Source of the DNA: Arthrobacter sp. UM1
Lineage (GTDB): Bacteria > Actinomycetota > Actinomycetes > Actinomycetales > Micrococcaceae
DNA length: 64,000 nucleotides
Assembly: GCF_020483305.1 (NCBI RefSeq)
Contig: NZ_JACWAB010000001.1
Span: forward strand, 372,001-436,000
Reading direction: 5' to 3'
Part shown: in pieces, positions 23,608 to 25,629 of the stretch
Position numbering within the stretch: position 1 is the first letter of the stretch
How the letters are laid out: every line of letters starts with the position of its first letter
Made by a program: the position numbers and the translations under genes
Notes under the pieces: model-generated
Told to the model about the DNA's origin: nothing
Database searches by the model: none
Seen by the model: the letters and a program-made list of their open reading frames with translations, nothing else

Positions 23608-23629
23608 TCCGAGGCCCATTCCGGCGCAC

Positions 23630-23667
23630 AAGGCCCGCTCTCCCCTCCGGGGAGGGCGGGCCTTTCT
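23630..23667 (+). terminator. Rho-independent terminator after qcrB
   Basis: Stem AAGGCCCGC (23630-23638) pairs with 23656-23664, continued by CTCCCC with GGGGAG around a TCC loop, followed by TTTCT. It separates the respiratory operon from the following small islet. Confidence 0.85.
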
Positions 23668-23751
23668 GCTGCGTCTCCCTCCCGCCCCTCACTCGTTCCC
23701 ATCCCGTCGAGCAGCATGACGAGCGCGGCATGCTCCTGGCTTGGAGCGCTC

Positions 23752-24652
23752 TCAGATCAGCTCTGCCACCGGCCCCTCATGGACCGCCTCATAGATGGCG
23801 TTTCGGATGGCGTTGGCCTCAGCGGAAGTCAGAGTCCGGTCGATGGGACGCAGCATGATCCGCAGGAGGAGGTTGCCCTGTCCGTCACGCGTGCCCAGCC
23901 TGGTGCGCGCAGCTTTCGGCAGCTCTTCGTGCCGTGTGCTGCCGAGCACCTCGAGCGACTCGACGAGCTCAGCGTCGTCGCCGAGGGCGAGACGCACCCG
24001 GTCTCCCAGCGTCTCTGCGTCCTCGTCAGCATCGACGACGACGGAGATGTCCCGACGCGCCGTGGAGCACGTCGATCTGCAGGCCGCCAAGCGTGTACGG
24101 ATGCGTCACGGCGGTTGTCCTCCACTGCGCGCCCGGGAGCACTGCCTCGACCAAGCGGCCGGCCATCGTGCGCAGGTCCTCGTCGCACAGGTCCTCGTCG
24201 CGCAGTGGTGACCTGCTGCGGAGGCGCCACAGGTCCACCTGGTGCGGCTCCCCCACATGGATGCGGTCCACAGCGTCGCGACGGTAGACCAGGCCGGGCG
24301 CCACGAGCAGCTCGTCGACGCCGGTCCTGCCCGCATAGTCCTCAAGAGCGCGCGGAAGCTCAGCGCTCATGTGGCTGCGGAGCATCACCGTGGGGCTGAT
24401 GTAGCGGGTGTAGCGCCGGGCCCGCGTGACGTCATCCGGCCTATAGCCGAGGCGATCGCAGTTGTCCCGAACCGGAACAATCGGCGAGCCGCGCAGACAT
24501 CGGATGGAGGTGCCCCCATCGGCCTTCAAAGCGTCCAGGACTGCGTTCAGAAGGGCCTGCATGGCGTGAGGCCCTTGGCCTGGGTCGGTCAAGTCGCGCA
24601 CGGTGAGCGCACGGTGGAGCTGGTCAGCAGTGACATAGTCGGCAGGCGACAT
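23752..24652 (-). pseudogene. PheRS-like ligase with FDX-ACB domain, broken by an internal deletion/frameshift
   Basis: Two minus-strand frames form one gene. The first, from ATG 24652 (after GGAGACC), reads through a class II phenylalanyl-tRNA synthetase-like core: LTDPGQGPHAMQALL (residues 21-35), TVMLRSHMSAELP, PGLVYRRDAVDRIHVGEPHQ (motif 2-like, 119-138) and THPYTLGGLQIDV (183-195). The second frame encodes an FDX-ACB anticodon-binding domain (RRDISVVVDADED to LLLRIMLRPIDRTLTSAEAN). The frame changes near 24056-24066. No motif 3 (GLGLERL-type) lies between them. In monomeric PheRS about 90 residues separate these regions, so the segment is probably deleted and the gene nonfunctional. Canonical PheRS is alpha-beta, so this would be a paralogue of unknown substrate. 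A 15-base tandem duplication gives DEDLCDEDL inside. Confidence 0.7.
24173..24201 (-). repeat. 15-base in-frame tandem duplication in the ligase gene
   Basis: CAGGTCCTCGTCGC occurs at 24173-24186 and again at 24188-24201 (period 15). It gives the repeated peptide DEDL in DEDLCDEDL at residues 152-160 of the ligase frame. Confidence 0.7.
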
Positions 24653-24864
24653 GAGAAGGTCTCCAAGAAGAGTGCAGGGACAAGGCACAGGAAAGTGCTC
24701 CCCCGGCCGTGCCTGCGAAGACCTGCTGCGCTACGAGCGCGCGTTGAAGACCCCGCGGCCATCACCCGGCCGGGGGTCCCGAAATCGCTGTTGCATCCGC
24801 ATGGCAACCCAGTGTAGCGACCTCACCGGAGAACGGCGAGACCCGCCGACAGCCGCCCGGCGGC

Positions 24865-25629
24865 TCACGAAGAGCCGTGCTGGCGGACGCGCGGAACATA
24901 GCGCCGCTGACCTGTGCGGCGCAGTGGAACGCTGATGCTGTAGCGGTCCGCGCGATAGTAGGAGACGGAATAGTCGACGAGGTCCTCGCGGATATAGGCG
25001 CGGCGCTGCACTTTGAGCAACGGCGTGCCCAGGTCCACTCGAAGCTGGCGGGACAGGGTCGCCGTCGCGGCCGCAGCGGAGATCGTGTCCTCTCCCCAGT
25101 CCATCTGCAGCCCGTATTCGTCGGAGAGGACCCGGTACAGGGAGCTGGGCGCCGGTGAGGAGAGAATGCCGGGAACGAGCCGCAGCGGAATGAAGTTCTC
25201 GTCCACAGTCATCGGCTCGCCGTCCGCGAGAAGCAGCCGCTTGAAGCGAACCAGTGGTGCGCCGGCCGGGAGCTTCATCTCCCTCGCCAGGGCGGAGGGC
25301 GCAGGCACCTGATCGAACGCGAGCAGGACAGCCGCCGGCTCCATGCCGCGGCGCCGCATCTCCTCCGAGTAGCCCGTCAGCTTGGGCTGAAGGGAGGTCT
25401 TGACCGGGGCCACAAAGGTCCCCTTGCCCACAATGCGGAGCAGTCGTCCCTCGTCCACCAGGCCGTCAATTGCCTTCCGGAGCGTCATGCGAGCCACCCC
25501 GAAGTCAGTCGCAAGCTGCCGCTCAGAGGGAAGCGCGACATCGGTTTCGGATCCCAGCTCTTCGATCATCTTCACGAGCTGCAGACGAACCTGCTCGCTC
25601 TTGGACGCTGTGGCGCTGTCTGGACCCAT
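24865..25629 (-). CDS. GntR-family regulator with UTRA domain (HutC subfamily)
   Basis: This 254-residue transcription factor has a GntR winged helix at about residues 10-75 (QVRLQLVKMIEELGSETDVALPSERQL with the recognition helix GVARMTLRKAIDGLVDEG) and a UTRA ligand-binding domain at about 95-240. UTRA regulators of the HutC type bind small effectors such as sugar phosphates, urocanate or amino-acid derivatives; the effector here is unknown. The ATG at 25629 has a TAGGAT hexamer (25636-25641) 6 bases upstream on the minus strand and TTGACC beyond it, so the mRNA is probably leaderless. It lies upstream of the broken ligase gene with 212 bases between them, in which I see no further gene. Confidence 0.9.
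   Translation of the reverse strand: MGPDSATASKSEQVRLQLVKMIEELGSETDVALPSERQLATDFGVARMTLRKAIDGLVDEGRLLRIVGKGTFVAPVKTSLQPKLTGYSEEMRRRGMEPAAVLLAFDQVPAPSALAREMKLPAGAPLVRFKRLLLADGEPMTVDENFIPLRLVPGILSSPAPSSLYRVLSDEYGLQMDWGEDTISAAAATATLSRQLRVDLGTPLLKVQRRAYIREDLVDYSVSYYRADRYSISVPLRRTGQRRYVPRVRQHGSS

Follow-up and report, generated by a model that had tools for sequence, protein, structure and literature searches.

The stretch of DNA analysed here (the window, 64,000 nt) carries a broken srmL gene that is almost certainly a real pseudogene. The best explanation of the data is that this gene is the dead copy of a horizontally acquired srmL, and that the intact family is probably a tRNA ligase of the one-chain, mitochondrial type that acts on tRNA-Phe. 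The SrmL family is already named yet functionally uncharacterised, and stands in databases as a 'mystery ligase'. The window copy is a case of ordinary decay in a degenerate member of a named family, not a novel gene; routine by itself, it leads to a family of mystery function.

A frameshifting deletion in srmL

The features of the remnant and of the segment that carries it are the following.

23610..24883, no strand assigned: srmL-bearing segment from qcrB to the GntR/UTRA gene, no blastn match in congeners G001 and G002
23752..24652, minus strand: whole srmL pseudogene, 901 nt long (the intact relatives aligned with it have 1119 nt)
24058..24652, minus strand: in-frame catalytic core remnant (NF051887 positions 1-177, 235.6 bits; Pfam tRNA-synt_2d)
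about 24057..24060, minus strand: deletion junction, from DNA alignment with seven intact relatives and the list of open reading frames
23752..24056, minus strand: FDX-ACB (anticodon-binding) remnant in another frame than the core (NF051887 positions 251-349, 120.2 bits)
24170..24199, minus strand: 15-bp tandem duplication inside the core, 14 of 15 bases alike, from sequence and alignment
24515..24517, minus strand: codon 46, G instead of the W found in 52 of 53 intact SrmL
24458..24460, minus strand: codon 65, C instead of the Y found in 53 of 53 intact SrmL

The core frame starts with an ATG at 24652, carries the class II motif 2 region VYRRDAVDRIHVGEPHQVDLW and the pocket motif HPYT, and after the junction is read on in the wrong frame as far as a stop at 24026-24028, while the FDX-ACB frame runs from the junction to a stop at 23752 (both on the minus strand). 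In the DNA alignment with the seven intact relatives, each 1119 nt long, 233 nt are deleted from the window gene, and since 233 is not a multiple of three the frame changes at this point. An earlier note, made from the sequence alone, had described, at 23752-24652, a gene in which a PheRS-alpha-like core is followed by an FDX-ACB domain, and had proposed that an out-of-frame internal deletion broke this one-chain PheRS-like ligase gene near 24056-24066. Matches of both parts to NF051887 and Pfam bear out the first claim, and the alignment agrees with the second, narrowing the break to about 24057-24060. The note had further held that a motif 3 segment of about 90 residues was missing; motif 3, which reads GLALGMGLERALML in the relatives, is indeed gone, but the loss comes to about 78 residues (73 profile positions). 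Full-length homologues, which the note had wanted aligned across the break, were found, and all 53 retain motif 3, so that a family naturally devoid of this motif is rejected.

Other lesions accompany the deletion. The 15-nt tandem duplication is present in none of the seven aligned relatives, and two near-invariant residues are changed, at codons 46 and 65. Changes flagged at E201, G203 and P269 were not counted, as they stem from out-of-frame letters before the junction. Differences between the window gene and its relatives in the DNA alignment fall mostly at third codon positions (against L110 there are 44, 34 and 122 at positions 1, 2 and 3), and this excess shows that selection acted on the encoded protein during most of the time before the break.

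That the break is a sequencing or assembly error in an intact gene is very improbable, since several independent lesions are present (the 233-nt loss, the separate 15-bp duplication and the two residue changes are hard to obtain from one error) and the junction is internal to a contig of 763 kb. Nor is this the only damaged member of the family: split or truncated copies occur in genomes G029, G165 and G266. It is, if anything, still harder to believe that the remnant works as a truncated protein, either as a core fragment or as an RNA-binding FDX-ACB domain on its own. In favour of this, the FDX-ACB part is an open frame and the gene has a coding-type history. Against it, no evident start precedes the FDX-ACB frame (a TTG at 24090 sits in out-of-frame sequence), motif 3 is lost, and decay has begun at near-invariant residues. 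Motif 3 is the ATP-binding motif of class II synthetases. An intact-type srmL formerly occupied the gap between qcrB and the GntR gene and was inactivated by the 233-nt frameshifting deletion that removed motif 3; the deleted copy would lack proper ATP binding and yield at most a truncated core.

Assignment to the SrmL family

For both window pieces the best curated-family match was NCBIfam NF051887, 'PheS-related mystery ligase SrmL' (E 8e-70 for the core), from which the window copy differs in being frameshifted and in lacking profile positions 178-250. Pfam tRNA-synt_2d matched the core with E 3e-8, and Pfam FDX-ACB was matched with E 7.6e-7 (29.9 bits, slightly below its cut-off of 31.1). 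Taken together, these family and domain scores exclude chance. Membership of NF051887 is defined for the whole protein, at 300 bits or more over 349 positions, a score that neither piece reaches, and the copy is filed only as an SrmL pseudogene. Its core nevertheless sits within a clade of full-length SrmL proteins with support of 100/99. The SrmL pocket signature H.Y(T) is kept in the core as HPYT, which is the only part of the signature that can be read, the E of the LAECG pocket segment falling in the deletion.

Intact relatives matched NF051887 with 472-524 bits over all 349 positions, Pfam tRNA-synt_2d with E 3e-31, and FDX-ACB with E 2e-5 (25 bits, below the 31.1 cut-off). Scores of intact SrmL against mitochondrial PheS (NCBIfam pheS_mito, TIGR00469) were 113-158 bits, below the cut-off of 258, and those against bacterial PheS (TIGR00468) were 80-119 bits, below the cut-off of 237. 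No pheT lies beside srmL, so the pheS-pheT pairing of bacterial PheS is absent, and in place of the FPF Phe-binding loop of monomeric PheRS there is HPY, with H and Y in 53 of 53 SrmL. The earlier note had suggested that an intact relative could be a ligase of unknown specificity: intact homologues do exist and their function is uncharacterised, but the family had already been named. In the papers searched, only unrelated uses of the acronym SrmL were found, and no SrmL biochemistry.

Horizontal acquisition and distribution

The host genome (2.39 Mb, 17 contigs) encodes a complete PheRS elsewhere, with pheS and pheT together on contig C10 (a PheS frame of 454 residues, and a PheT frame of 879 residues with B3_4 and FDX-ACB domains). 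In the congeners G001 and G002, qcrB is followed by unrelated DNA and then by the GntR/UTRA gene, and blastn found the 1.27-kb srmL stretch in neither. The maximum-likelihood tree placed the window core in a 10-row clade that spans several actinobacterial families, including Microbacterium, Brachybacterium, Brevibacterium, two genomes from the family of the host, and a Glutamicibacter plasmid; the plasmid and genome G109 encode identical SrmL proteins. In this tree the placement of the PheS outgroup is not trusted, given branch lengths of 5 or more and one mis-extracted row. Since the congeners lack srmL and the window core belongs to a mobile clade, the window gene was acquired horizontally.

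Within the host's family, srmL was detected in 44 of 345 genomes, distributed over 14 of the 32 sampled genera, and elsewhere in the phylum in 2 of 395 genomes. It was also found in plasmids, Nocardia, Pseudonocardia, Azotobacter (a 51%-identical copy on a plasmid), an alphaproteobacterial MAG and giant phages. This patchy, plasmid-borne and often broken occurrence indicates a mobile accessory gene, of which the window copy is one of several relics.

In congener G002 (L125, about 2000-2700), the unrelated DNA in the gap between qcrB and the GntR gene apparently includes a portion of a different coding gene, so that insertions may recur at this site as a hotspot.

Architecture and pocket of intact SrmL

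Intact-type SrmL has 372 residues and consists of a PheRS class II catalytic core followed by a C-terminal FDX-ACB domain. When a profile of 12 intact members was searched against the PDB, human mitochondrial PheRS was the top match (E 4.5e-30), aligned end to end through motif 2 and motif 3 and into the FDX-ACB domain. An AF2 model of intact SrmL had a mean pLDDT of 75.7, with weak regions around residues 55-95 and 122-134, and its first Foldseek match was again human mitochondrial PheRS (3cmq, E 1.1e-19). That enzyme is monomeric and has the same order of parts in one chain, a class II core and a C-terminal FDX-ACB (B8) domain. It has been described as a PheS catalytic module fused to the C-terminal B8 domain of PheT, and as the sole monomeric form of PheRS (PMC3275996). 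Identity between the two is about 22%, and SrmL has HPY for FPF and Glu for one Gly of the pocket floor; unlike the mitochondrial enzyme, SrmL occurs in bacteria and phages, in bacteria beside a normal PheST. With bacterial PheS it has motifs 2 and 3 and the HQ.(D/E) amino-group site in common, but it differs in having no PheT partner, no N-terminal coiled coil, an FDX-ACB domain of its own and another phenyl pocket.

Essentially all 53 full-length SrmL keep the motif 2 Arg, the motif 3 GxGxxR (with D or E before the Arg), HQ and the pocket Ala. The pocket residues H179, Y181 and E201 are present in 53 of 53, where 23 of 24 PheS have F, F and G, and correspond to F258, F260 and G282 of T. thermophilus PheRS, in which Phe-alpha-258 and -260 of the FPF loop hold the phenyl ring (PMC12447630). 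The Glu replaces a Gly of the conserved GG.G segment, which the alignment places at the pocket floor. SrmL has the architecture of a one-chain PheRS, conserved catalytic motifs and an altered pocket.

With the residues that read the phenyl ring altered in all 53 proteins, the amino acid may not be Phe. The two corresponding Phe positions are, however, N and Y in eukaryotic cytosolic PheRS, which still charges Phe (PMC3275996), so H and Y in SrmL do not rule out Phe, and the stricter proposal that HPY excludes it was dropped. The same observations bear on the possibility that SrmL, while retaining the PheRS fold, has given up tRNA charging and ligates small molecules or carrier proteins, its pocket being remodelled for another aromatic or polar substrate. 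The three invariant pocket residues would suit such an enzyme, as would the lack of an adjoining tRNA gene in bacteria, and aaRS paralogues with non-translational jobs are common (PMC9437257). Besides the N/Y enzyme, two observations detailed below speak against it: the FDX-ACB domain is kept throughout, including in giant phages where srmL lies among tRNA genes and no other PheRS was found, and no biosynthetic partner gene recurs across insertion sites. On balance we regard this alternative as unlikely.

We infer instead that intact SrmL, an accessory enzyme of one chain, likely activates an amino acid as its adenylate and loads it onto tRNA-Phe. The adenylate would be formed in the PheS-like pocket, the FDX-ACB domain would recognise the anticodon of tRNA-Phe, and SrmL would thus act as a second enzyme beside the host PheST. 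No tRNA gene was found beside bacterial srmL in 60 loci, apart from two unrelated tRNA-Arg genes 2-4 kb away, which fits an enzyme that uses the tRNA-Phe of its host.

SrmL in giant phages

A scan of viral contigs and annotated phages detected SrmL in six large phage records, and further viral scans gave no additional ones.

L130/L138, L133/L140, L129/L134, L131, L132 and L128, 181-635 kb: SrmL phage contigs, several with the gene within tRNA arrays

The five phage SrmL proteins that were scanned against NF051887 scored 387-443 bits, above the cut-off, and the phage proteins share the H.Y and ECG pocket. Each record encodes a single strong PheRS-type core (E below 1e-31). The B3_4 domain of PheT was not detected in these records by a search that was positive in 14 of 14 control genomes. 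Five of the six records (416-635 kb) have 49-71 tRNA genes, with tRNA-Phe in all five, and encode further class II synthetases. In G759 (L130, L138), two tRNA-Phe(GAA) genes directly flank srmL, and in G762 (L133, L140) tRNA-Phe and tRNA-Val genes lie just before it; in G758 (L129), srmL comes after a core frame resembling HisRS and a gene resembling SerRS (both named from sequence). By chance, the adjacency in G759 would occur in 1 of 18 slots, with a value of 0.007 on shuffling of the tRNA order, and the value for G762 is 0.16. These statistics are modest, the adjacency occurs in only two, mutually related records, and phages with about 60 tRNAs would be expected to hold tRNA-Phe regardless of SrmL.

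The 181-kb phage record with SrmL (L128, L132) gave no tRNA hits, only a possible tmRNA nearby (ARAGORN), and may be a fragment. Giant phage G760, which also carries SrmL, has a tRNA with a CTA anticodon (L175:2792-2865), labelled tRNA-Pyl by ARAGORN and possibly a suppressor.

Gene neighbourhoods and resistance genes

Partner genes of srmL, which the earlier note had proposed to look for, did not emerge: clustering of the neighbours of 65 loci gave clade-specific synteny only, and none was conserved across the differing insertion sites. In one mobile clade, srmL or its fragments lie beside resistance genes.

L068:6176-10041, L069:5098-7624 and L066:10338-13119: actinobacterial plasmid loci where srmL, whole or as a fragment, neighbours erm(X), tet(65) and Cmx/CmrA efflux genes

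On a Glutamicibacter nicotianae plasmid, srmL or a fragment of it adjoins the Cmx/CmrA efflux gene, on two Corynebacterium plasmids srmL fragments lie between erm(X) and tet(65), and in Brevibacterium and Microbacterium homologous efflux genes are found beside srmL. By analogy, intact SrmL might serve in resistance, as a spare PheRS of one chain that withstands an inhibitor or toxic analogue directed at PheST. Such a role would suit the patchy, mobile and often decayed gene, and has a precedent in the plasmid-borne, mupirocin-insensitive IleRS2, an accessory mobile second synthetase found beside resistance genes (PMC9437257); the likeness to IleRS2 is one of gene context. The same review lists no PheRS duplicate (PMC9437257). 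Against a resistance role, the resistance neighbours come from the one clade, the Corynebacterium copies are fragments and srmL may be mere cargo there, and many chromosomal copies (about 18 loci) lie between housekeeping genes that are methyltransferase-like and rhodanese-like. We therefore consider the resistance reading rather doubtful, and the broader suggestion that SrmL confers protection from an inhibitor of PheRS or uses an amino acid that resembles Phe is likewise speculative.

Returning to SrmL as an accessory ligase for tRNA-Phe, a wider and quite tentative proposal is that SrmL provides bacteria and giant phages with a mobile tRNA-Phe synthetase in one chain, an enzyme form known elsewhere only from mitochondria. 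In phages it might serve their own tRNA-Phe genes; in bacteria it might travel together with resistance genes and act as a reserve PheRS or one that tolerates inhibitors, and its altered pocket might let it charge a non-standard amino acid resembling Phe. If true, the picture of three PheRS forms (PMC3275996) would gain a monomeric enzyme from bacteria and phages, and SrmL would offer a compact single-chain enzyme for genetic-code work. The giant phages, the tRNA-Phe context and the resistance neighbourhoods were not found as leads on this family in the papers searched. The new links, namely SrmL among the tRNA genes of giant phages without another PheRS, the conserved pocket change and the erm(X)/tet/cmx neighbours, make the family's job directly assayable.

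At a single chromosomal site in about 18 genomes (L071-L097), intact or broken srmL is convergent with a rhodanese-family gene, whose predicted product looks like the tRNA uridine hydroxylase TrhO.
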